A program made the position numbers and the translations under genes. 14,156 nt of DNA from a bacterium (GTDB lineage Bacteria > UBP15 > UBA6099 > JAJRTR01), in the NCBI GenBank assembly GCA_024278215.1, contig JAJRTR010000128.1, forward strand, positions 1-14,156, given 5' to 3'. Below are positions 1 to 13,214 of the stretch, in pieces. The notes under the pieces are model-generated. The model was given only the letters and a program-made list of their open reading frames with translations. It was not told the origin of the DNA and made no database searches. The stretch's first letter is position 1, and each line of letters starts with the position of its first letter.

Positions 1-1072
1 GGAACCGGACCGCCTTCATCGACGCGATAGGGATAAGATTCGATACGGGCAGCAGCGCGATGAAAAACCAGCCGATTGCAAATGTCGCAACAGGCGCGAC
101 GCGCCGCAGAGCGACAGCCGCGACGAGCATCGCCGCAAGACCCGCCGCCGACCACAGAACAACCGGCGCCATAACCGAATGAAATATCTCCGGCACGTAC
201 ACCGGGCACATGTTCTGCGCCGTCGCCAGCATCCTCGCATAGTCCGCGAACACCGGTATCATTGAAATGAGAGTGGCCGCCCGCGAACCGCCGTGGTAAT
301 GGTGGAACTGTCCGGTGATGTCCACGTATGAAGTTCTGAAAACAAGATATGTTACGGCGATGAGCGCGAAAGGAAGTGCGCCGCGCAGGGCGCGACCGGC
401 GGTTCTCGCGAGGCCGGTATCCTTGCCGGGGAAAATAAATTCGTAAATAAATACGATACATGGCACGATAATCGCCGACTCTTTGGACAGAAGAGCGAGC
501 GCGAAAGCGGCCCACGACAAGCCTGCGAACTTCATGTCTGTTTTCGTATGGAGCGCGGGGCCGGGCCGGTCGAAGCCGCGGCTTCCGCTGTCGTCGCGCC
601 GCCGCGCGGCGGAGATATAGAGTGCGACCGACGTGAAGACAAGCGGCGCGGCGAGCAGGTTTGCGCGACCGCCGGTGATCCACGGCACGACCTCCGCGTG
701 CACGGGATGCACCGCGTACAGCAGCGCCGCACAGAACGCCCATAACGTGTTGCCGAGCAGGCAGCGCGCCATAAAAAACATCGCCGCGCACGCCGCCGTG
801 AACAGCATCACGTTTGTAAAGTGATACCCGAACGGGACCGGCATATATGTGTTGTCCGCAAGGAGCGAAACGGACCGCAGCGGCCTGTAGAGCCGGTCCA
901 CCGGGTGCCTGAAGGCATCGAGCCAGTTCGACGCGCCGGTTATTTCAGAAACATTGTATATAATGTCGTGGTCGTCCCACACAAGGGTGTATTTGAATGT
1001 TGGATAGTATAGAAGAACGGCTGTCCCTATAACCACCGCCAGCATGACCACTGTGAGGTATCTGTCTTTCAT
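1..1072 (-). CDS. TMTC-like GT-C membrane glycosyltransferase, N-terminal part (truncated by window edge)
   Basis: I translated 357 codons from the ATG at 1072 without meeting a stop; the 3' end lies beyond base 1. The protein starts with a short cytoplasmic stretch, a first membrane helix (about residues 8-27) and VWDD at 31-34, the place where TMTC-like GT-C enzymes carry their acidic catalytic motif. Further family landmarks are YRPLRSVSL (62-70), AVHPVHAEVV (120-129), ALLSKES (193-199) and LPVSNLIPI (341-349). It is a paralogue of the genes at 5914-7677 and 11074-12989, which suggests that TPRs follow outside the window. The expected role is sugar transfer from a polyprenyl-phosphate donor on the periplasmic side; donor and acceptor are unknown. 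The start overlaps the stop of the GT2 gene as ATGA, with no clear Shine-Dalgarno, so translation is probably coupled. Oddity: the usual AERYLY after LPVSN reads KAVRF (353-357), lacking the conserved Glu. Family call fairly sure; activity inferred. Confidence 0.85.
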   Translation of the reverse strand, partial: MKDRYLTVVMLAVVIGTAVLLYYPTFKYTLVWDDHDIIYNVSEITGASNWLDAFRHPVDRLYRPLRSVSLLADNTYMPVPFGYHFTNVMLFTAACAAMFFMARCLLGNTLWAFCAALLYAVHPVHAEVVPWITGGRANLLAAPLVFTSVALYISAARRRDDSGSRGFDRPGPALHTKTDMKFAGLSWAAFALALLSKESAIIVPCIVFIYEFIFPGKDTGLARTAGRALRGALPFALIAVTYLVFRTSYVDITGQFHHYHGGSRAATLISMIPVFADYARMLATAQNMCPVYVPEIFHSVMAPVVLWSAAGLAAMLVAAVALRRVAPVATFAIGWFFIALLPVSNLIPIASMKAVRF

Positions 1073-1779
1073 CCCGATGCAATCGACTTCTTTATCCGGA
1101 GCATTCTCAAAAATGTGCGTTTTATATCTCCGGCTTCTATCTTTGATTTCCCGGCGCGTCGCGGGTAATGAGTCACCGGCACCTGCCGGATGCTGAAACC
1201 TTTCGCGCGGGCGCGTCCCAGCATTTCGGCGTTTATCAGGTAGTCGTCCGACTCAAGCGTCAGCGCGTCCAGCACGCTTCGTTTCATCAGCTTGAACGCG
1301 CAGTCGACATCGCGCACTTTCAGCCCGAACAGCAAGCGCACAAGCAGGTTGAACCCCTTCGCGAGGAACAATCTTATCCACGAGTCCGCCCTGTTTTTGC
1401 GGTATCCGATCACGAAATCAAACTTATGCGCATGAGGCAGTAGAAGCGCCAGTTCGCCGGGGTCGAACTGGTTGTCGCTGTCAGTGAAAAACACATATTC
1501 AAGCTCTGCGGCGGCGAAACCCGAACGCAGCGCCGCGCCGTATCCCATGTTACGCTCGTGACGAATCATTTTAAGGCACTTCATGTTATCTTTCATGTTG
1601 TCGAGCACAGCCTGCGTCCCGTCCGTGCTGCCGTCGTCGACAACTATTATCTCGAATTCCGCGGCATATTTTCTCAGCGCATTGTAGGCGCGGCAAACGG
1701 CAAGTTCTATATTTTCCTCCTCGTCGAGGGCGGGCATAATATATGAGATGCCGGGCAATTTATACACAGTTTCGCTCAA
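1069..1779 (-). CDS. GT2 family polyprenyl-phosphate sugar synthase (DPM1-like)
   Basis: This is a 236-residue GT-A fold glycosyltransferase of family 2, close in size and motifs to single-domain dolichyl-phosphate mannose synthases. Visible motifs are VVDDGSTDGT (46-55, nucleotide binding), NMGYGAALRSGF (77-88), the metal-binding TDSD (99-102), RDVDCAFKLMKR (156-167) and RRAGKSK (207-213), the last typical of DPM1/GtrB-type enzymes. There is no C-terminal membrane domain, so it is probably peripheral on the cytoplasmic face. By family it would move a sugar from a nucleotide-sugar to polyprenyl phosphate, making the lipid-linked donor that GT-C enzymes use. Being the only such synthase among seven GT-C-like genes, it is the likely donor supplier for the locus, which is inference. 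The start is a TTG overlapping the upstream stop as TTGA; a good AAGGTGG site six bases before it supports this start. The mannose versus glucose or other sugar specificity cannot be read from the sequence. Confidence 0.88.
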   Translation of the reverse strand: MSETVYKLPGISYIMPALDEEENIELAVCRAYNALRKYAAEFEIIVVDDGSTDGTQAVLDNMKDNMKCLKMIRHERNMGYGAALRSGFAAAELEYVFFTDSDNQFDPGELALLLPHAHKFDFVIGYRKNRADSWIRLFLAKGFNLLVRLLFGLKVRDVDCAFKLMKRSVLDALTLESDDYLINAEMLGRARAKGFSIRQVPVTHYPRRAGKSKIEAGDIKRTFLRMLRIKKSIASG

Positions 1780-3770
1780 GGGTTGCCACCTTCCTTGATC
1801 CTGTCGACAATGTTTTTATATTCGGGCCGGATCGCCGCTGCTTTCCCGAACGCTTCGAGCGCGGCGCGCCGTTCGCCACGCCGGTGATATATCTCGCCCG
1901 CAACTGCGTGCAATCCCGCGATTCGGTCATTAACTTCAATGCCTCGCAGTGCGGTTTCGAGTGCCTTGCTGTCGAGTCCTTCGACATAATAGATGTATGC
2001 GAGCGCGCGCAACGCAGTGAGATTATCCGGGCTGAGCGACAGGCTGCGCTCGAGTTCGCCGCGCACAATTACCTTTTCACGCTGTGGCGTCTTCTTCCAG
2101 GCGTAAGCCCTGTCGAGCGCGGTGTGCGAGTCGGTCATCGTGTAGATATTGTCGGCGATAAGCGCGTGTTGCGCCGGGGTGTCTTTCGCGTAAATCTGCA
2201 CCACAGTATCCCAGTATACAAGGAACCACGGACCTTTGCCCCTGATGATCGCCTGCCCTGTGGCGGGCCTGTCGGATCGAATAACCGCGAATGTCAGGCC
2301 ATATTCAGACTGCATCTTATTCCACTCTTCGGGCGTCGGCGCCTGTTCGAATGCGATTACCCGGCTGTACAATTCAGGTCCGTACACCGGAACGCGACCG
2401 TCGATGAAGACTTTGTGTTCGGGGTACAGGCCAAAGATCAGCGGTCCGCCAAGTCCGAATGTGTTATACATATTGCCTTCAAATCTGTTGTTCTTAATAA
2501 ACTCTATCGCGGATTCCGGGTAAAAACTTTCGTTGATTCCCGTGCCCCATACGAATTTATGATCTTTGTAAGACAGGAAGTACCCGGCTGAAGTGAATGT
2601 GAAAATGATCAGGCCGGCGGCTAATGCACGGAATGTTTTATTACACAACAGACCGCCCGCCGCCGCGCTGAGATGAACCGCGACAATCGGCGCGGCGAAC
2701 ATCGCGAACATTGCAATAAAACGACGCGACCTGAGCGACATATACGCCGTCAGGCAGAATAACAATAAATGAAAGATATTAAGCCGCCTGCGGCCCGCAG
2801 TAAATGAGACAATGCCCGCCGCCAGGAAGAACGGCACGGCGAAGCGACCCGCCGCGCCCGCGCCTGTCGTAAAATATTCGCGCCACGGCACCGGTGCCCA
2901 CTCCGCTATGTGTTTCAGGAAAACGATGTTGCCCGAAAACTCCAGAGGCGCGACCAGGCCGTGTGTTCCATAAGGATTCAGCAGTATCGCAAACAGCACA
3001 GCGACGAGTATATAGCCGAGACGCCGCATATTGCCCGATGTCAACTCCGGCTGAAGTGTCGAACCTGTTTTCGTGTTTATAACAACGGCCGCCGCCGCTG
3101 CGACAACGGCGAAAAACACCAGTACGATTCCCAGCGGCGCGCCGGGGTGAAAATTGACCCACAGCGCCTGCATGACGGGGATCATTATCATTACAATGAC
3201 AATCCGGCGTTGCTCCGGGTCACCGGCCGGCGCGTCCGAATCGCCGGCAACTTTGTGGACTGCACTGCTCTTTGCAGTTGTGATACGTGTAATCAGGTAG
3301 AAGAAAGCGGACGCGAACAGGAGCGAGAAGAGTTCCGGACGCGGCGTCAGACGTATACGCGAGGCAAACGCCGCAACCGCAAGCAGGGGCGCGAGCAGCA
3401 ACGGGTCGCCGCCCGCGCGGCTGCCCGCAAAGAAAAGAACACAAAAAATGAGCACGGAAATAGCACTGACTAATATTTGCAGACCCTTCACTCCATATTT
3501 GTTGTAAACGGCGTACAGATAGTAGTCGCCCATCCATTCGTCATTTACCCATTTCGCGCCTTCGCGGGTGTGCGAAAAAGGATCGGTCTGCGGCAACTGC
3601 CTCGACTCTGGCTCCTGCTGCGCCGTCGCAGCTATGATTTCTCCAGACTTGATATGCCACCATGTGTCAGTTTCCCATACTTTTACATAAGTTATGAATG
3701 CGACAAGCGCAAGCAGGCAGTACAAAGCGATCCTGCCCGGGTTGTCTTCTTTGGTTTTGTTCATAAACAT
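1776..3770 (-). CDS. Polytopic GT-C-like membrane protein with soluble domain and C-terminal TPRs
   Basis: The 664-residue protein has a first helix at about 13-30, then a conserved acidic and aromatic loop: TDTWWHIKSGE (34-44), DPFSHT (63-68) and WVNDEWMGD (74-82). A helical membrane part follows to about residue 410. After it comes a soluble domain with GNMYNTFGLGG (432-442) and VFIDGR (454-459), then about two to three TPR units (roughly 570-655). This layout is known from many bacterial membrane proteins annotated only as hypothetical or TPR proteins; the topology and the first-loop acidic residues recall GT-C transferases, but no member's activity is known to me. An Asp or Glu in the 34-44 or 63-82 loop would be the catalytic candidate. 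It follows an 81-base gap after the previous gene and overlaps the GT2 gene by TTGA. Start: ATG at 3770 or at 3764 (MFMNK); neither has a clear ribosome site. In the gap a CCGG stem with a T5 run (3824-3841) is too short to call a terminator. Confidence 0.8.
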   Translation of the reverse strand: MFMNKTKEDNPGRIALYCLLALVAFITYVKVWETDTWWHIKSGEIIAATAQQEPESRQLPQTDPFSHTREGAKWVNDEWMGDYYLYAVYNKYGVKGLQILVSAISVLIFCVLFFAGSRAGGDPLLLAPLLAVAAFASRIRLTPRPELFSLLFASAFFYLITRITTAKSSAVHKVAGDSDAPAGDPEQRRIVIVMIMIPVMQALWVNFHPGAPLGIVLVFFAVVAAAAAVVINTKTGSTLQPELTSGNMRRLGYILVAVLFAILLNPYGTHGLVAPLEFSGNIVFLKHIAEWAPVPWREYFTTGAGAAGRFAVPFFLAAGIVSFTAGRRRLNIFHLLLFCLTAYMSLRSRRFIAMFAMFAAPIVAVHLSAAAGGLLCNKTFRALAAGLIIFTFTSAGYFLSYKDHKFVWGTGINESFYPESAIEFIKNNRFEGNMYNTFGLGGPLIFGLYPEHKVFIDGRVPVYGPELYSRVIAFEQAPTPEEWNKMQSEYGLTFAVIRSDRPATGQAIIRGKGPWFLVYWDTVVQIYAKDTPAQHALIADNIYTMTDSHTALDRAYAWKKTPQREKVIVRGELERSLSLSPDNLTALRALAYIYYVEGLDSKALETALRGIEVNDRIAGLHAVAGEIYHRRGERRAALEAFGKAAAIRPEYKNIVDRIKEGGNP
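1786..1792 (-). promoter_or_regulatory. Shine-Dalgarno site for the TTG start of the GT2 gene
   Basis: Minus-strand AAGGTGG, one mismatch from AAGGAGG, lies six bases before the TTG at 1779-1777. It is inside the end of the preceding gene. It decides the start, since the next ATG (residue 15) would cut into the first beta strand. It is also one of the few clear ribosome sites in the operon. Confidence 0.6.
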
Positions 3771-3851
3771 ACCGCGATACCAATTGCGAAAACAATTCTC
3801 ACCGATACCGAACTGCGATTACGAAAAACCGGTAAGTCCGGATATTTTATA

Positions 3852-5807
3852 TCAATTTGCGCCGGAAATCTTTTTTCGCGCCTGCTCGACGATATCGTCA
3901 CCGGGGTCGAACGCCGCAGCCCTGCCGATATAGGTGGCCGCATCTTCTGTGTTTCCGTATCTCAGTTCGATCATCGCCATAAATGCGAAGGCGCGGGCGA
4001 CAAGTGTTGTTTTTCCCATCTTTTCGATTTGTGTAAAGACAGCGAAGTGTGTGAACGCTTCCTCGTATTCGGCTTTATTGTACAGCAGCACAGCAAGGTT
4101 GTAGTGCGCCTCGGCGATTGTCGGGTCAGACTCGACAGCCTTTCTGAAATACTCGATGGCTATGTCTTTGCGCCCTGCCATGTTCGCCATTTTTCCGAGG
4201 TTGAAGTTCGCCGGGGCGTGCGAGGGATCGATAGTGAGGGCCTCGCTATATTCATTCAACGCGAGCAAAGGCCTATCCAGGTTCATATAGGTTATCCCAA
4301 GTGAATAATGCTTATGGGCGGGAGATTTCGAAGCGAAGGCGAGGGCGGCAAAGTAGTTCATGAGCAGAATCCCGGCCATGGCTGTTACCGTACCGACCGC
4401 GAACGCGAATGAGATGCGGTTGTTTTCTTCCCGCAAATAATAAGCGCAAACCAGGAAAAGTGAAAAGACGGTGAAGAGATAGATATAAAGCGAGTACGCC
4501 GCCGGGATGGTATTAATAATGGCAGGCAGCCACGCAGCCCGCAAAACGCCGTTTGCAAACAGCTTGAGGCAGTATTCGGTGACAGGTGCGTCGATTATTT
4601 GAGGCACATGCGGGTTTGTCGCCGTAATGAGCAGAAACAGTGCCGAGGAGGCCGCGAACGCGCCCATGAAAAGTCCTCCTGTGAATCGGCCCGCGTTTCT
4701 AAGGCTGAACACGCAAAGAAAAACCATAAAGGGCAGCATGCCCACAAGGTGCCTCGGCCCGGCCGACATGCCGCCGCCGGGTATGGGAAGCGAAGCGTTA
4801 ATGAGAATGTGAATGATGACGATCGCGCCGGCCGCGATAACCGGTTTCCGCCAGTGCGCGTCGCGCAGTCCGGCGAAAAAGCCGGGGACTGAAAACAGAA
4901 GGAACGGCGACAGGAAAAACAGGCCGCGACCGGGCTTCAGCAGAATGTCGTATAACGCGGAAAGATGCGGATATGTGATCCCGCCGAGCCCGCGGGCGTG
5001 GGCTTCGGCAAAAGGCGTGTAACTTTCGTGGAGGTAGCCGATTGTCAACCAACCGCCGAACGCCGCATGGTTGTACATGAAAAATACGGAGGCGGCGACC
5101 AGAACTCCGGGAACGAGCAGAAGCAGTGAAGATCGCTTTTCGATGATCGACGACGCGAGCAGAAGCAGAACGACAGCGTGAGCCGCGGTCGGGTAGTCGA
5201 TGACAACCATATAAGCGGCGGTGAATCCGGAAATCAGCATTACGGAAGCCGAAGGCGGGTGTTCGCGGCAAAGAATATAAAAGAGGATAAAGGAAATTAC
5301 CGCCGCCGGTACATGGCCGTAGAACAGCGTCGAGTACGGATACCACAGTGTCGCGAAAGCCAGCGCGAGCGTACATGCGAATGAGACGGAGAGGCTTTTG
5401 CAGACGGAAAAAACAATAAGAAAGAATATGCTTGCGAGCACAGCCGCGGGAAGCGACACGAGGAACATCGTGCAAATATGACGGAAGAGAATATTGTCGG
5501 GATCGACCTGTCCGAAAGACGAATAGGCCCACGCGACCGGGAGCGCGGCAAGCGACAGGCCCGGCGCTTTGTCCGTGTAATAATGGCCGTCGACGTACGC
5601 CTTGTCAATCGTGTTAAGGTGCCATTTGTCGATATTCAGCGAATGTTCGGTGATCATCGACGCCGTGAGATCGAGTCTCGTGTTGACGTTGTCGGCGGGG
5701 ATCGGTGTGAGGAAATATGAAAACGCGAAAAATGTAATAATGAACAGCAGCAGGGACAGCGTACGTGCTTTCGACTCATAATTATGTTGTTGCAGATAAG
5801 TTTTCAT
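3852..5807 (-). CDS. GT-C-like membrane protein of the GHYY-DKAPG family with C-terminal TPRs (copy 2)
   Basis: The 651-residue protein has a first helix (about 17-35), a loop with RLDL (44-47), LNID and GHYYTDKAPG (74-83), then about ten hydrophobic segments, and three to four TPRs from about residue 493 (one ends in LTIDP, the next in VESDP). It is plainly a paralogue of the gene at 7674-9494. Both share RLDL, LNID, NTIDKA, GHYY-DKAPG, GLFY, RGLF, GPR with LPF, and PHVP before the last helices. The Asp residues of RLDL and DKAPG are the likely counterparts of GT-C catalytic acids, which is inference. I know of no characterised member, so a polyprenyl-phosphate-sugar transferase is a guess from fold and neighbours. 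The TPRs would lie in the periplasm if topology follows TMTC. The start at 5807 has no strong ribosome site and is separated by 106 bases from the preceding large gene. An 81-base gap follows. Confidence 0.82.
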   Translation of the reverse strand: MKTYLQQHNYESKARTLSLLLFIITFFAFSYFLTPIPADNVNTRLDLTASMITEHSLNIDKWHLNTIDKAYVDGHYYTDKAPGLSLAALPVAWAYSSFGQVDPDNILFRHICTMFLVSLPAAVLASIFFLIVFSVCKSLSVSFACTLALAFATLWYPYSTLFYGHVPAAVISFILFYILCREHPPSASVMLISGFTAAYMVVIDYPTAAHAVVLLLLASSIIEKRSSLLLLVPGVLVAASVFFMYNHAAFGGWLTIGYLHESYTPFAEAHARGLGGITYPHLSALYDILLKPGRGLFFLSPFLLFSVPGFFAGLRDAHWRKPVIAAGAIVIIHILINASLPIPGGGMSAGPRHLVGMLPFMVFLCVFSLRNAGRFTGGLFMGAFAASSALFLLITATNPHVPQIIDAPVTEYCLKLFANGVLRAAWLPAIINTIPAAYSLYIYLFTVFSLFLVCAYYLREENNRISFAFAVGTVTAMAGILLMNYFAALAFASKSPAHKHYSLGITYMNLDRPLLALNEYSEALTIDPSHAPANFNLGKMANMAGRKDIAIEYFRKAVESDPTIAEAHYNLAVLLYNKAEYEEAFTHFAVFTQIEKMGKTTLVARAFAFMAMIELRYGNTEDAATYIGRAAAFDPGDDIVEQARKKISGAN

Positions 5808-5831
5808 ATCACACGTTTATGAAAATGCGAT

Positions 5832-5924
5832 TCAGAAAAAAACGCGGTAAGCGTCGAGCGGGTAGAAAAACAGAGTCGCGGAAACGATAAAAAACAGGAA
5901 TGAATATCCGCGACTACTGTTCAT
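5832..5924 (-). CDS. Possible 30-residue hydrophobic membrane peptide, or gene remnant
   Basis: An ATG at 5924, inside the last codons of the preceding gene, is followed by 30 codons: a polar start (MNSSRGYS), one hydrophobic span (FLFFIVSATLFFY) and the end PLDAYRVFF. A purine-rich GGAAAGAAG sits just before it and could serve as a ribosome site. It nearly fills the 106-base gap before the next large gene. The stop directly follows a run of seven T (minus strand); reading with one T fewer would extend the frame to a stop that overlaps the next ATG as ATGA, the junction style of this operon. It could be a real micro-protein, the remnant of a larger membrane gene, or chance. No family recognised. 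Confidence 0.25.
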   Translation of the reverse strand: MNSSRGYSFLFFIVSATLFFYPLDAYRVFF

Positions 5925-7677
5925 TACTTCTTTCCATTTCCTGTTCGAGGTAGTCCCGCATGACGAGGGCGCGATGATTATCAGGAGAAGTTGCGAGTAT
6001 ACGATTACACATATCAAGGGCCGCGTCTATTTTGCCGAGCTGGTGATACACCATTGCAAGGTATAACATGGCGGAAGGATTATAGGTACTGAGTTCGATT
6101 CCACGTTCGAGGGCTTTTTCAGCGACGTTCAACCTGCCGAGTTTTATGGAGGCCACGCCGATGTTGAGGTATGGAGAAGCCGCCTCGGGGTTGTAGCGGG
6201 TTGCTTCGGAAAAGAAGAAGATCGCCGTTTCGAGCCTGCCCTGCCGTGCGGCGACAATGCCGAGGTTGGTGAGTGCGCGATAGAGGCTGCCATAGCGGAA
6301 GTCCGACTGCCTGCCTTCCGCCGCCAGACGAACCGCCACGACGAGAGTATTACCCGCGTCTTCGAGGCGGTCTTCATCGAGGTATGCAAGTCCGAGGTTC
6401 ACCATCGCGCGGGCCGACGCCGGCGCGCAGTTGCAGGCGTCCTCCCAGAACTCGACGCGACTGTCCCAGACGCGGTTTCTCCTGTGCGTCATGAAGCCTG
6501 CCGCCGCTATTGCCGCTATCATCAGCACAGCCAGAATCGACCGGTTAAGGAAAGGGAATGGTCTGTCGCCTGACAGAAAAAGGTAATCGGCGGCGACGGC
6601 GATCGCCAAGAAAAAGCCTATGGAAGCGATATAAAGATAGCGCTCGGCCATTACGACACCGATGGGAATGATGTTGCTGACCGGCAACATGAATAAGATG
6701 AACCATGCCACACCGAAAGCTACAGGACGGCGGACGAGATAGAACAACAACGCGGTGCCCGACAGTGCGATAAGGACGAATATCGCAATGAGTGTCGCAG
6801 GGTCGCCGAGCGACGGATGCTCTGCAAAGAGGTAATCGACGCATTGTATGTCGGGCCAGAAAAGTAGATTAATGTAGCGCGCGAACGCCTGAATCATGAT
6901 CACGGCGGTGGATCGGAAATTGCCACCGTGGTATATGAGCACCTCGTGAGGCCCCTGCATCGGGCCGAAGCGGATGATAAGATAAAATATGGCGGGAACA
7001 GCGAACAGCGCCGCCGTGCCCCATGCGCGCGCCACACTCTTTTCGTCGCTCAGGTAATATTCATAAGCGAGTATAACGCACGGGAACACAACTGCCGTCT
7101 CCTTGGAAAAAACGGCGAGCAGGGCAAGAATGAGCGAAATAAACAGATATACCGGCGACGCGCCGTCCCTGTATTTGATGTAGACAATCAAGGAAGCGAG
7201 ACAGAAAAACGCCGCGAGGAGATCCTCGCGGAAAGTTATCGCGTTTATGGCTTCAGTCTGGATCGGATGCAGAGCGAAGAGCAGGGCCACGCCGAGCGAG
7301 AGCCAGTACTTTCTCGTGAAACGCGCCAGAAGCGCCAGCACCATGAACACGTTCATGATGTGCAGCACGATGTTGAACATGTGGTATCCGCCGGAGTGGA
7401 GGTCCCAGAGATAATATTCGATCATGAAAGTGAGTGTGGTCACCGGTCTGTAGGATAATTCGACAGGCTGCGTGAAATACGTCTTGTCGAAAAGGTGCGG
7501 GATGTTGGAAATGCTGTGAATAAAGTGATTGTCCTGAATCAGGTATGTGTCGTCCCATATAAACGGGTTGTCGAGCGTGTTGTAATAGGCGAAAATAACA
7601 GCGCAGAAAATGATGATTATGGCGGCGAGCCTGGCCCCCTGCGAAACAGTTGCGTTTGTATCAGCAGTACCGTTCAT
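5914..7677 (-). CDS. TMTC-like GT-C membrane glycosyltransferase with C-terminal TPRs (copy 2)
   Basis: The 587-residue protein begins at the ATG at 7677, which overlaps the preceding stop as ATGA; the frame is open further upstream to 7866, but that stretch is Arg-rich shadow of the overlapping gene and is rejected. Landmarks: first helix (16-32), IWDD (40-43, acidic motif of the first loop), YRPVTTLTF (76-84), LHPIQTEAI (136-144) followed by FRED, FSKET (190-194), LPVSNIIPIG (331-340) and AERYLY (344-349). About four TPRs run from residue 425 to the end. These are the marks of the TMTC-like (DUF1736-containing) GT-C group; eukaryotic TMTC proteins are O-mannosyltransferases with lumenal TPRs. 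The bacterial enzyme would be expected to transfer a sugar from a polyprenyl-phosphate donor in the periplasm, with TPRs binding the acceptor; this is inference. It is the most complete and canonical of the three copies here. Confidence 0.88.
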   Translation of the reverse strand: MNGTADTNATVSQGARLAAIIIIFCAVIFAYYNTLDNPFIWDDTYLIQDNHFIHSISNIPHLFDKTYFTQPVELSYRPVTTLTFMIEYYLWDLHSGGYHMFNIVLHIMNVFMVLALLARFTRKYWLSLGVALLFALHPIQTEAINAITFREDLLAAFFCLASLIVYIKYRDGASPVYLFISLILALLAVFSKETAVVFPCVILAYEYYLSDEKSVARAWGTAALFAVPAIFYLIIRFGPMQGPHEVLIYHGGNFRSTAVIMIQAFARYINLLFWPDIQCVDYLFAEHPSLGDPATLIAIFVLIALSGTALLFYLVRRPVAFGVAWFILFMLPVSNIIPIGVVMAERYLYIASIGFFLAIAVAADYLFLSGDRPFPFLNRSILAVLMIAAIAAAGFMTHRRNRVWDSRVEFWEDACNCAPASARAMVNLGLAYLDEDRLEDAGNTLVVAVRLAAEGRQSDFRYGSLYRALTNLGIVAARQGRLETAIFFFSEATRYNPEAASPYLNIGVASIKLGRLNVAEKALERGIELSTYNPSAMLYLAMVYHQLGKIDAALDMCNRILATSPDNHRALVMRDYLEQEMERSNEQ

Positions 7678-9494
7678 TTGCGTCCCGACATTTCTTCCGC
7701 TGTCTTTTTCAGTTCCAGCAGAGTCGTATTTCCCGGCTGTCTCAGGAGGCCGTTGTGGATGATGGGCACGGCCCTGGCGACGTTGCCCACGGTAAGCCAC
7801 GTCGCCGCGAGCGAGATGCGCGCCTGCGTGTCGCCGGGATCGAGCAATAGAGATTCCTCGAAACAATATATTGCATCATTATAGTTTTGCAGACGGATTC
7901 GCGCAATTCCAAGCCGGTACCATGCCTGCCGGAAACCCGGCTCTTCGTTGACCGCGTCCAGGAAGTAGTCGGCGGCTTCTTCGTACTGACCGTTGCTCAT
8001 GAATGCCGCACCTTTGTAATAAGATGTCTTCGATGTGTCCGTGCCGAGGTGTACCGAAGAAACCATGAACAAGACAGCCACTGCCATGAACCCGGTGATG
8101 ATGCCGAGCAGAGACTCGTTGAGATTTTCGTTTTTCATCCCGCGCATCAGCGACCACACAACAAGGCACGCGAGCAGCACAGCGGGCACCGCGGCCAAAC
8201 TGCCTGCGCCGCTGATATAATTTCCGATTGTACGCAATTTATAACCGCCCACGAGTAGAGGCATAGTAAATTGAAACAACGGCGCGTTGAATATATGTGG
8301 AACGTGTGGTTCGACAAGGTTGATTATGAAATAGTAGATGATGGAAAACACGCCCGCGCCCGCCGCTGTTCCCCGCGCGTATCCGTCGAGATTGTTCCAG
8401 CCGGCGGCGGCGAGAAGTGCAGCGAACGGCAGGACATGCACAAGGAACCTCGGCCCCGGCGCGAAACCGCCATACGGTTCATAATAAGCGGAGTTGATGA
8501 CCAGACCGGAGAGGAATATCAGGCCGCAGGCCACCGCTGCCCTGCGTTTCAGCGCGCCCGATTTCCAGGCCGCTGACATGCCGGGCAGCGCGAGCAACAG
8601 GAAAGGCTGCGCCCAGAACAGACCGCGCTGCGGCTGAAATAAAAGCTTAAAAAACACCTTCGGGTCGGGGAAAGTCACACCGCCTATTCCCCTGCCCATT
8701 TCTACTTTGAACCACTGTTGCACCTCATATTGATAACCGATGTGAAGCGGATGCCCGAATGCCGCCGCGTTGTAGCCGGCCAGCACGGCGAGAGCGGCTG
8801 CCGCGCCCGCTAAAAGTGCCGCGCGGTGGCGCAGGCTGCGCGAATCATAAAAAGAAATCGCGATAATAATCGCCGCTGGAACCGCCGCCGGATATTCGCA
8901 TACAATCGCATATCCCGCCAGCACGCCTGTAAGAAATCCGGTGAGCGGCGTTCGACGCATATTGCCTGCCGCTTCGCTGAACCAGATGAAGAATGCCGCC
9001 ATAAGCAGTGCGGCCGCCGGTTGATGGCTGTAGAAAAGGCCCGAATAGGGCATCGCGAGCGTCCCGGCCGCGTAGATGACCGCCGGGAAAAGCGCGTCGC
9101 CGCCGGATAGCTGTTCGGCAACTTTGCAGAACAACAGGAGCGACAGCACCGAAGGCAGCGCTATGATGAGCAGGATCAGCGGCCACTGTGCGACAGGATT
9201 GTCGGGATGCCAGTCAGCATCAGGAAAAACTCGCGCCAATACAGCTACAACACCGGCCGCGGGCAGCGAAACACCCGGCGCTTTATCGCAATAATAATGG
9301 CCGTTGTAAAACGCTTTGTCGATTGTGTTGGTATGATATTCGTCGATATTCAGGTCGCCGCTCAAGGCGAGAGAAAAGGCGAGATCGAGCCTGCTCGCAG
9401 CATTGTCGTATGCCGTGTTGTGCATGTTCCATACGTAGCAGATAAGCAATATTGCCACGAGCACTGTCGATGTCAAAAGCCTGTTGTTTTTCAT
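7674..9494 (-). CDS. GT-C-like membrane protein of the GHYY-DKAPG family with C-terminal TPRs (copy 1)
   Basis: The 606-residue protein has a first helix (about 6-23), RLDL (35-38), LNID, NTIDKA and GHYYCDKAPG (65-74) in the first large loop, then many membrane helices and three TPRs from about residue 490. Shared positions with its paralogue at 3852-5807 extend through the membrane part: PYSGLFY, EYPA, YNAAAFG, IGYQYE, GRGIGGVTFP, QRGLFW, GPRFLVHVLPF and EPHVPHIFNAP. Such conservation of His, Asp, Glu and Arg in loops suggests an enzyme, most likely a GT-C transferase, though no member's reaction is known to me. It starts with ATG at 9494 overlapping the previous stop as ATGA, has no evident ribosome site and ends in a further ATGA overlap, so it is coupled on both sides. 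Confidence 0.85.
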   Translation of the reverse strand: MKNNRLLTSTVLVAILLICYVWNMHNTAYDNAASRLDLAFSLALSGDLNIDEYHTNTIDKAFYNGHYYCDKAPGVSLPAAGVVAVLARVFPDADWHPDNPVAQWPLILLIIALPSVLSLLLFCKVAEQLSGGDALFPAVIYAAGTLAMPYSGLFYSHQPAAALLMAAFFIWFSEAAGNMRRTPLTGFLTGVLAGYAIVCEYPAAVPAAIIIAISFYDSRSLRHRAALLAGAAAALAVLAGYNAAAFGHPLHIGYQYEVQQWFKVEMGRGIGGVTFPDPKVFFKLLFQPQRGLFWAQPFLLLALPGMSAAWKSGALKRRAAVACGLIFLSGLVINSAYYEPYGGFAPGPRFLVHVLPFAALLAAAGWNNLDGYARGTAAGAGVFSIIYYFIINLVEPHVPHIFNAPLFQFTMPLLVGGYKLRTIGNYISGAGSLAAVPAVLLACLVVWSLMRGMKNENLNESLLGIITGFMAVAVLFMVSSVHLGTDTSKTSYYKGAAFMSNGQYEEAADYFLDAVNEEPGFRQAWYRLGIARIRLQNYNDAIYCFEESLLLDPGDTQARISLAATWLTVGNVARAVPIIHNGLLRQPGNTTLLELKKTAEEMSGRK

Positions 9495-11077
9495 TTATTA
9501 TTGTTGTCCGCGGGCGGTGCCGGTCTGAGAACCCACTGTCCGTTTTCATAGAGAATGATGTATCCATCGGGTTTGCGGGTCAGTATCAGGCTCGGGATAA
9601 AAGCGACCGGAATGAAACCGGAGCGCGTGCCCGGTCGGTTCATATATTCGAAATGGTGCGGGATGAACGAATGCCTGTTTTCCGGATGATATATCAACGT
9701 GTGCCCGTAAATGCTGAGTCCGAGCAGTTCATTCCCGAAAAGGGTCTGGTAGTTGTTGGACTTGGTCAGCCTCCCCATATTGAAATCCACAATATAAACG
9801 GCGAAACCGGCGGGCAGCAGCGCGGTACCGTCGGTGTTCTTTTTCACTTCTCTTTTCGGCAACACAACCGCGCCCGGCAGGTAATAAAAGAAAAGCGCCC
9901 GGTAGTTGTTGTAAACCTGATCGTCCACTACCAGCACAATATTATCATTTGTCGTGCCGAGATAATTGCAGAGTTGCATAAACCTGCTCTGCCCCCACTT
10001 CAGGCCCGAAAGGTTCATCACCGTCTGGAAAGCAGTCAGTGCAAGCAATGCGGCAATCAGGGGCGACCACTTTTTTATTGTCGCCGCATCCCTGAAGAAC
10101 ATGGCGGCGCCGAGCGCGAGAAATGGTATTATGGCAAGCATGTAATAGCTGTGCACGAAAAGGAAAAAATACAAAACGGAAAAAGGCGCAGCGAGGGCCG
10201 CCGGCCACCAGCCCGCGCCCCTGCGCAGGGCGGAGCGATACAGACCGAGCAGTCCCAGACAGAAAACAGCAGGCGACGCTCCCCAGAATATCTCTTTAAT
10301 CATATACAACAGGTTATTCATAGTCGGCAATGCGAACGCGCTGCCTTCGTATACATTCTTAATAAGGGCGGGCGACCTGAGCAGATGATGAAAAACAAAC
10401 GGGGCCGGGATAATAACGGCCGGAATGAGGAAAAGTATGATTCGCCGGTTGATCCACTTCAGTGATCGCTTCTCGAGAGTCGCGGCGAGCAGCAGCCCGG
10501 GCAGCAGCAACACACCGAAATTCTTTGTAAAACAGGAGAGGCCCCACAACACACCGGCGGCAAGCTTGAGCAGAGCCTCACGCCTGTGTCCGTTTGAAAT
10601 CAGGAACAGCCACGCCGCACCGAGTGCGAAACTCACATAGGCCGCATCGGGCTGCGCCTGTCTGCCAAGCACGACGTATACAGGACACACAGCGAGAAAC
10701 GCCGCGGTCAGCAGACCCGCCGCCCGACCGCCGATGCGGCACCCGATAAGATATATCCATAGCAGGGACAGCAGGCTGAAAAAGACCGATACAAGGCGCG
10801 GCGCGGCCTCGCTGAAGCCCACAGCCCGCATCGCAAACCACGAGAGTATCGCATAAACAGGCCGCACTTTATAATCAATGAGTCCGCCCGATACCGTCGG
10901 ATTCCATATCGACGTTTGCTCGAAGTTGCGCGCCTGCGTCGCGTACCATGCTTCGTTCAGCGCGTGGTATCCCCCGAAAGGCTCGTCGATGCGCACACAC
11001 CTCAGATACGCTCCGGCGACCAGTATCAGGACGAATATAAGAAATACCGTTGTCCTGTTTTTTGTGTTCGTTTTCAT
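9491..11077 (-). CDS. PMT/ArnT-like (GT39/GT83-type) membrane glycosyltransferase
   Basis: The 528-residue protein has a first helix (10-26) followed by RIDEPF (29-34) and NEAWYATQARNF (41-52), the first-loop acidic motif of the PMT_2/ArnT group. The sequence AAPRLVS (91-97), a Gly-rich helix pair and GRQAQPDAAY (138-147) are also typical. About ten to twelve helices are followed by a soluble C-terminal region from about residue 365 with no TPR, as in many GT39-type proteins. By family it transfers a sugar from a polyprenyl-phosphate donor to a protein, lipid or glycan in the periplasm. It is the only clear PMT-type member of the cluster and the only complete GT-C protein here without TPRs. 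It begins with ATG at 11077 overlapping the previous stop as ATGA, without an obvious ribosome site, and ends in ATGA overlap with the next gene. Confidence 0.87.
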   Translation of the reverse strand: MKTNTKNRTTVFLIFVLILVAGAYLRCVRIDEPFGGYHALNEAWYATQARNFEQTSIWNPTVSGGLIDYKVRPVYAILSWFAMRAVGFSEAAPRLVSVFFSLLSLLWIYLIGCRIGGRAAGLLTAAFLAVCPVYVVLGRQAQPDAAYVSFALGAAWLFLISNGHRREALLKLAAGVLWGLSCFTKNFGVLLLPGLLLAATLEKRSLKWINRRIILFLIPAVIIPAPFVFHHLLRSPALIKNVYEGSAFALPTMNNLLYMIKEIFWGASPAVFCLGLLGLYRSALRRGAGWWPAALAAPFSVLYFFLFVHSYYMLAIIPFLALGAAMFFRDAATIKKWSPLIAALLALTAFQTVMNLSGLKWGQSRFMQLCNYLGTTNDNIVLVVDDQVYNNYRALFFYYLPGAVVLPKREVKKNTDGTALLPAGFAVYIVDFNMGRLTKSNNYQTLFGNELLGLSIYGHTLIYHPENRHSFIPHHFEYMNRPGTRSGFIPVAFIPSLILTRKPDGYIILYENGQWVLRPAPPADNNNK

Positions 11078-12989
11078 CGAGATGCAGGAGTTCCCAAAGA
11101 TTTGATTTTTTCATATATCCCGGCAGCCGCCTCCGCTCTGCCGGTGCGTTTGTAAATGCTGTACAGGAGGTGATAGGAAGCTGTCGAGGAAGGATCAAGT
11201 TTTATGCTTTCGAGCAACTCGGACTCGGAGCGTTTCATATTCCCCAGTCGCAGATATGCCTGTCCGAGAGCGCCGTGATAGACCGCCGAGCCGGGTTCCA
11301 GCGCGACCGCCTGTTCGAGCCACTCGACCGCCTGCTTCAGAGCCGCGGCATCCTCCGAATTCTTTATTATATATTGTCCCGCGATAAAGTATGATTGTGG
11401 TCTGTCCGGGTCTGAGGCAAGTGCTTTTTGTATATATGCCAGGCCGCGCTCGTAATCGCCCCGCGCCGCGTATAAGTCGGCAAGATGATACATAGGTTCG
11501 ACAAAATCCGGCTTCAGTTCGACCGCGGCGAGAAACGACTCCCGCGCCATTTCAATGTCGCCCAGCGCGCGATACGCGAGTCCGAGGTTATAGCGATATT
11601 TGAATTCGTCGCCCGTCTGCTCGCTGCCGGGTACCAGGGCATATTGTTCCATCGCGTTTTCAATGTCGCCGGCTTTCAGGTAGGCGTTTGCGAGGTTCAT
11701 GTGTGCCTCCGCGCTTCGAGGCGCGCAGGCTGTCGTATCCTGCCAGAACGACAGATCACTCTGCCAGGCGGCAAGACGAAGCGGTGTCAGAACGCAAAAA
11801 AGTATTCCGAACGCCGCCGCGCACACAGCGGCAGTATGCGGGCGCGGCAGCCTCTCGAGCAGAGCCGCCGCAAGGAACGCAAACGCGAAAGACGGTATGT
11901 AAAGATAGCGTTCCGCCATCGTTTCTCCAAATGGGATTATATTGGACACAGGCAGCAGGCTAAGCAGGAAAAACGAGGCGGCGAAACCGAGTACGGCGCT
12001 CCACCCGGCAAAGAATATCGAATTGCAGGCCGCTACATCACCGATCGGTTCGGATGCGTGTGTTTTTCGGCGCGCACGTACCGCCGCGCCTGCAATCGCT
12101 ATCATCATGATAACAAAAAGTATTGCCGCCGGAACGATAACATTATTGCCTGCATCAATAACGTAATCGGCGCACAAACGCGCGGGGACGGCCAGCAACA
12201 AAAAGTATCTGATGAAAACATAAGACATGATGCTGAAAGTGCGCCATCCGCCGCCGCCGGGCCAGTCCGCACCGCCGCCCGGATTCGCGAGCCATAAATA
12301 GTGGAAGCCAAGCAGCAACAGGACGCCCGCGACATAAGGCAGATATTCCGGTAGCCTGTCCTTGAGAAGTTTAATAAACGGCTTTTCGCGGTCTGTGACG
12401 TAAAAATGATATGCGAAAAGAACCAGCGGGAATGAAGCCGCCATTTCCTTGGAGAACAGCGCGAGCAGGAAACACACGGTCGCCGCGACTCGCCCGCGCG
12501 CGCCGCCGCGCAGATGCAGGGCGAACGCCGCGAAAAAAAAGAGTCCGCAGAGTATCTCCTCGCGGTTCGACGCCAGCGCCACCGCCTCGGTTTTCACAGG
12601 ATGCACACCAAACAGAAACGCCCCCGCGAACGCCCACCATGGGGCGATCCCCATTGCCGCCAGAAGATAAAAAACAGCAACGGCGGCGAGCGCGTGCAAC
12701 ACAACATTGAATGCGTGAGCGCCCACAGGCGAGGCGTTCCACAAACGATGGTCGATGAAATATGAAAGCGTCGCCACAGGCCTGTAAGTGCGTTCCGCGA
12801 AACGGTCGTAGTAGTCGGACGAAAAGACGGCGGCAATATCATCCACGCTGTCGAACGACTGGTTCCTTAAAATCACATCGGTGTCGTCATATAGATAGGG
12901 AATCCTGAGCGCGGGGGTAAAAACGATAAAAGTAAGGATAAAAACGAGCGCGGCAAGGGGCAGGGTCAGTGTTTTTTTTTACCCGGCAT
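11074..12989 (-). CDS. TMTC-like GT-C membrane glycosyltransferase with C-terminal TPRs (copy 1), reading frame broken at an A9 run
   Basis: This is the first gene of the operon. The long open frame can start, uninterrupted, only at GTG 12876 (600 residues), but that would lose the first helix and the acidic motif. The same frame stays open upstream to 12979 and encodes LPLAALVFILTF and PYLYDD, matching the first helix and WDD of both paralogues, with no ATG, GTG or TTG in between. The ATG at 12989 reads MPGKKKH and stops (TGA 12968-12966). One added A in the A9 run, or a -1 slip there, joins it to give a 638-residue protein with YDD at 34-36. Other marks: TYRPVATLSY, FGVHPVKTEAV, LFSKEM, LPVSNIIPFG, AERYLYIPS and about six TPRs from residue 427. 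Role as for the copy at 5914-7677. An ATG at 13016 is in frame with 12989 and is an alternative start. No strong ribosome site; GGA lies about 11 bases upstream. Confidence 0.8.
12972..12980 (-). repeat. Homopolymer A9 tract at the 5' end of the first operon gene
   Basis: The plus strand shows nine consecutive T, so the coding strand has nine A forming codons 4-6 after ATG 12989. Ten A would be needed to keep the ATG in frame with the 638-residue protein. The run also fits the slippery pattern A-AAA-AAA followed by C. Such tracts are known sites of slipped-strand mutation, transcriptional slippage and -1 frameshifting, and also of sequencing miscounts. Confidence 0.9.
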
Positions 12990-13025
12990 GATGAATGATC
13001 CAGCGGTATTTACCATCGTGCGTAA

Positions 13026-13054
13026 ATTATATCGCCGCCCGGAAGTCAAGTCAA
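13026..13054 (-). promoter_or_regulatory. Sigma-70-type promoter of the glycosyltransferase operon
   Basis: On the minus strand, TTGACT (13054-13049) is followed by exactly 17 bases and a perfect TATAAT (13031-13026). The predicted start of transcription is near 13019, giving a leader of about 30 bases before ATG 12989. An A-rich stretch (TGAAAA) stands just upstream of the -35 box. Its position immediately ahead of the first gene supports one long operon transcript. Confidence 0.75.
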
Positions 13055-13214
13055 TTTTCACTGATTTTGCAACAGACAGCAGAATCAGACCGGGATTCGT
13101 AGCCTGGCGTTCAGGATTCAGAAAAAACCACTACTGTCGTGTCACGCATTGAATGTCGGCAAAAACGGCAGGACACGATCTCCGATACGCACCTCAAATA
13201 ATGAGAGTATTTTC

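Follow-up and report, generated by a model that had tools for sequence, protein, structure and literature searches.

The first gene of an envelope-type operon is broken at an A9 run

The window, meaning the whole stretch of 14,156 nucleotides that was analysed, is an entire contig (C102) of the host genome G000, an assembly of 4.55 Mb in 207 contigs. Its minus strand carries an eight-gene envelope-type operon (1069-12978), the last gene of which, at 2-1072, is cut by the contig end. The operon encodes a GT2 family glycosyltransferase (1069-1779, minus strand, assigned by a domain match) and several multi-pass proteins, most of them with TPRs, and its genes are mostly joined by 4-base overlaps, with exact overlaps at 11074-11077, 9491-9494, 7674-7677, 1776-1779 and 1069-1072. 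The second gene (9491-11077, minus strand) encodes a PMT_2 (GT-C) glycosyltransferase and overlaps the first gene through ATGA. Gene reading, Pfam and alignment further identify an intact paralogue (5914-7677, minus strand) that combines a GT-C-like part with TPRs, starts with ATG and bears a WDD motif. Upstream of the operon, positions 13135-13185 form a dispersed intergenic repeat, with copies of 33-49 bases and 81-91% identity on C170, C175, C77 and C138.

The body frame of the first operon gene, P0001, spans 634 codons (11074-12978, minus strand) and, as judged from the open reading frame, domains and alignment, comprises a GT-C-like membrane part with a YDD motif, followed by C-terminal TPRs. 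This frame opens inside a run of nine A residues (12972-12980, minus strand, read directly as T9 on the plus strand), is closed upstream by a TAA (12981-12979) that directly overlaps the run, and contains no ATG, GTG or TTG before GTG 12876. The sequence-only reading had stated that the gene lacks a usable start ahead of its first helix and YDD motif, and that the ATG at 12989 lies one base out of frame exactly at the nine A residues; both statements hold. Read from ATG 12989, the gene begins ATG CCG GGT AAA AAA AAA CAC TGA (MPGKKKH-stop). A second ATG at 13016, absent from that earlier reading, shares the frame of ATG 12989, and translation from either stops at TGA 12968-12966, just after the run, defining a short open reading frame read directly at 12966-13016 on the minus strand (MVNTAGSFIMPGKKKH, then the stop).

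The break is a single one. A simpler frameshift scan without gene overlaps returned 146 matches, most of which were shadow frames or junctions between genes, and it was replaced by a free-frameshift gain test. In this test, allowing a single frame change at the A9 run raised the coding score by 20.8 bits. None of the other tested runs of 7 or more (583 in all) gained as much, and the 600 control A/T runs of 4-5 peaked at 12.2 bits. The first gene, as is typical of slipped-strand phase-variable genes, contains a homopolymer in its coding region whose length sets the frame.

A sigma-70-like promoter (TTGACT-17-TATAAT, 13026-13054, minus strand) is predicted by consensus match only, at 11 of 12 positions, and ATG 12989 lies 37 nt below the end of its -10 element. 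The promoter is plausible only, because the region holds four sites this good against 2.5 expected.

The skipped N-terminal segment is real protein

Orthologues from the same-order genomes G001 and G006 (40-42% identity) possess an intact ATG and align from query residue 1, and the residue pair D31/D32 is invariant in an alignment of nine homologues. Judged from these alignments, the N-terminal segment upstream of GTG 12876 is real protein, in agreement with what had been claimed from the sequence. At the other end of P0001, the predicted TPRs are certain, with a Pfam match to the array and a structure model of pLDDT >80 over roughly residues 461-630. From its kinship with PMT_2 proteins and its acidic motif, the N-terminal half is predicted to be a multi-pass domain of GT-C-like type. 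Pfam returned no GT-C match for P0001 itself, but the neighbouring gene and a paralogue on C86 do match PMT_2. In the membrane part, the structure model was of low confidence and too poor for a fold search. The initial label "TMTC-like" is acceptable as a description of architecture (GT-C-like plus TPR) but goes no further, since the DUF1736 segment of TMTC proteins has no Pfam match in P0001 and a PDB search with the family profile returned no match. The C86 paralogue was itself considered as a broken gene and rejected, its apparent stop sitting upstream of a GTG start.

Breaks at long A/T runs recur in GT-C genes

Throughout the 4.5-Mb genome, we located every A/T run of 9 or more (38 overlapping matches) and then read it in context; the sequence sampled covered about 1.29 Mb of G000, together with all A9 loci taken as stretches. 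Twelve runs of this length within genes leave the frame intact (C25, C34, C40, C51, C71, C121, C123 with two, C126, C175, C179 and C201). None of the twelve genes is a GT-C gene; by inspection, we take the one on C179 to be HflX-like and the one on C201 to be ThiL-like. By contrast, two further GT-C-type genes are broken at their runs. The gene at C163:2875-2883 (T9) has its halves in two frames, whereas its orthologues in the same-order genomes G001, G003, G004 and G006 have both halves in one frame. The gene at C124:1286-1295 is broken at a T10, the sole A/T run of 10 in the genome, whereas its orthologues are continuous in the same-order genomes G001, G005 and G006. Both products are PMT_2-type, one above and one below the Pfam cut-off in the genome search, and both breaks are internal to the gene. 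The direction of the break is identical in all three GT-C genes, including that of the window.

Breaks at in-gene runs of at least 9 thus affect 3/3 such runs in GT-C genes and 0/12 in other genes, a distribution with a probability of 1/455 under random assignment, from three cases and with the class chosen post hoc. By its composition, the GT-C class is not predisposed to such runs (1.8 against 5.4 expected per 100 kb). The breaks are concentrated in sugar genes rather than spread over all long-run genes, which is the pattern of phase variation, in small numbers and with the same post hoc choice. Across the genes sampled (about 0.93 Mb), synonymous shuffling predicts about ten times as many A/T runs of 9 or more as are present (45 expected, 4 observed), whereas runs of 7 are as frequent as in the shuffles (233 observed, 226 expected). 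Long runs are therefore costly here, as expected if they slip. No close relatives of the host were found among the genome contigs searched.

The A9 run of a gene pair on C45 was considered as a fourth broken gene and rejected, since this phage-type pair has a conserved -1 arrangement. The pair (G000 C45 1501-2162; also G001 C117 1884; in G003, an A9 at C30 23389-23397 next to the matching gene) resembles a programmed frameshift of the phage tail-assembly-chaperone type, and it has no PHROGs match.

A slipped-strand OFF allele is the favoured explanation

We favour, with a probability of roughly one half, the explanation that the window gene is a slipped-strand OFF allele of a hypermutable A9 tract, probably belonging to a contingency-like set with the C163 and C124 genes. 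The gene would encode a real GT-C-type, TPR-bearing envelope glycosyltransferase, and in the assembled genotype it would be turned off because a slipped-strand event had altered the length of its A9 tract, which occupies codons 4-6, by one base, leaving a 7-residue peptide from ATG 12989 or a 16-residue peptide from ATG 13016. A replication slip within the tract would be the sole route to restoring the enzyme, and may thereby change the surface glycan; some full-length product may still arise through slippage at the RNA level or through -1 frameshifting. The same type of change would have struck the two other GT-C genes, at tracts of 9-10 bases, suggesting that dispensable surface-sugar enzymes form a small contingency-like (phase-variable) set. 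Since no other break interrupts the 634 codons of the body, the lesion would be either recent or cheap. The phase variation put forward in the sequence-only reading is therefore supported in part: three broken GT-C genes set against twelve intact runs favour a slippage-type event at a hypermutable tract, but this support stops short of reversible switching itself.

Two observations bear on how far this explanation can be carried. The genome contains mutS1 and mutL, so that a mutator background is unsupported, and the presence of MutS1 and MutL counts against the slipped-strand explanation, as they would restrain slippage. In addition, relatives carry the gene without the tract, which is therefore not a conserved switch. 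The data fit equally well with a gene that simply lost its function recently at a mutable site, with no selection for switching. Beyond the OFF allele itself, a small phase-variable set of GT-C enzymes, including the TMTC-architecture enzyme heading this operon, may be switched by A/T tracts of 9-10 in a genome that otherwise purges such tracts, a proposal that we regard as tentative and rather doubtful.

Alternatives to replication slippage

The length of the run could be wrong through assembly or sequencing error, the true gene being in frame. The discrepancy is of one base, in the second-longest A/T run class of the genome, and all three broken genes are off in the same direction, as a systematic undercall would give. 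Nevertheless, the twelve other in-gene runs of at least 9 of the same genome are in frame, and so are 56/56 in-gene A/T8 runs of the 1.29-Mb sample and, in the relatives G001, G003 and G006, all A9 runs that lie clearly inside genes (about a dozen). GT-C genes are few, PMT_2 (GT-C) having only about 30 matches genome-wide, and an assembly error blind to gene class, which would not single out three GT-C genes, is a poor account of the pattern. We therefore consider such an error unlikely, and these data appear to fit a slippage-type event better than a chance error of assembly. To read all the long runs of one and the same genome is a simple way to tell assembly error apart from biology.

Alternatively, RNA polymerase slippage or -1 ribosomal frameshifting could yield some full-length enzyme, the break being then tolerated or even setting expression. 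The change needed (-1) is in the direction allowed by A AAA AAA and is identical in the three genes, and transcriptional rescue at runs is already known (PMC4256274, PMC5009743). In the C45 phage-like gene pair, the A9 with its -1 arrangement is conserved in G001, and in G003 an A9 adjoins the corresponding gene, so that A9 runs are probably decoded in -1 in this lineage. For the window gene, by contrast, a conserved programmed site is unlikely, because the slippery run is absent from the G001 and G006 orthologues and the RNA downstream of the run has no stimulatory structure, being less structured than shuffles (z = +1.0). These results speak against the programmed transcriptional slippage or -1 frameshifting suggested in the sequence-only reading, and we consider rescue at the RNA level or by the ribosome unlikely as the main explanation. 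The same reading had held that an intact ATG and the lack of an A run in relatives would refute it; such relatives do exist, but only at about 40% identity, so that they speak against conservation of a programmed site rather than against phase variation.

A non-standard start is very improbable. The leader peptide would stop at TGA 12968-12966 and translation would restart, in the body frame, at the overlapping CTG 12969 (CTGA), which keeps the first helix and the YDD motif. Several genes of the cluster overlap by exactly 4 bases, as CTGA would, and an SD-like 4-mer is found at only 47% of ATG starts in the sample. However, CTG start codons are rare in bacteria, the orthologues and paralogues start with ATG, and a CTG restart leaves the C163 and C124 breaks, both internal, unexplained. 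Finally, a start at GTG 12876 with a non-protein upstream part is hardly credible, for although this is the first standard start codon of the body frame, it drops a helix and the DD pair invariant in the nine homologues, and the orthologues align ahead of it.

Comparison with known systems

Slippage-driven on/off switching is well known in other bacteria. The window case would be a fresh instance of this known phenomenon, unusual in recurring within one enzyme class of one genome. If the slipped-strand explanation is true, homopolymer switching of surface sugars extends to an uncultivated lineage and to the GT-C/TPR class of enzymes. Campylobacter and Neisseria have phase-variable glycosyltransferase genes with homopolymeric tracts, typically of longer poly-G/C, for which mixed lengths are proven. 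As in these bacteria, the genes described here encode surface sugar-modifying enzymes with frame-breaking homopolymers, several such genes lying in one genome, but the tracts are of A/T and 9-10 bases long, and the genome has G/C runs of 9 or more at two places only.

The TMTC-like architecture itself has already been noted in many poorly characterised prokaryotes (PMC7801869). Like human TMTC1-4, P0001 is predicted to have a multi-pass sugar-transferase-like region with an early acidic motif, followed by TPRs (PMC7801869), and unlike them it has no Pfam DUF1736 match and a family profile with no PDB match. In Citrobacter, a frameshift in tssM is reported to be rescued by transcriptional slippage (PMC4256274; review, PMC5009743). 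As in that case, the window gene is a broken gene with an A/T run for which correction at the RNA level is conceivable; unlike the tssM rescue, its run is not conserved and the case is known from sequence alone.

In Listeria monocytogenes, the length of the poly(A) tract at the 5' end of inlA varies with high frequency, cutting the protein to 8 aa (Orsi et al. 2010, PMC2831843). The inlA tract is A6/A7, with variation and its frequency measured, whereas the present one is an A9 in a GT-C-type glycosyltransferase gene, seen in one assembled sequence. In both, the A run lies a few codons past the start of a surface-related gene, and a change in length by one base shortens the product to about 8 residues (PMC2831843).
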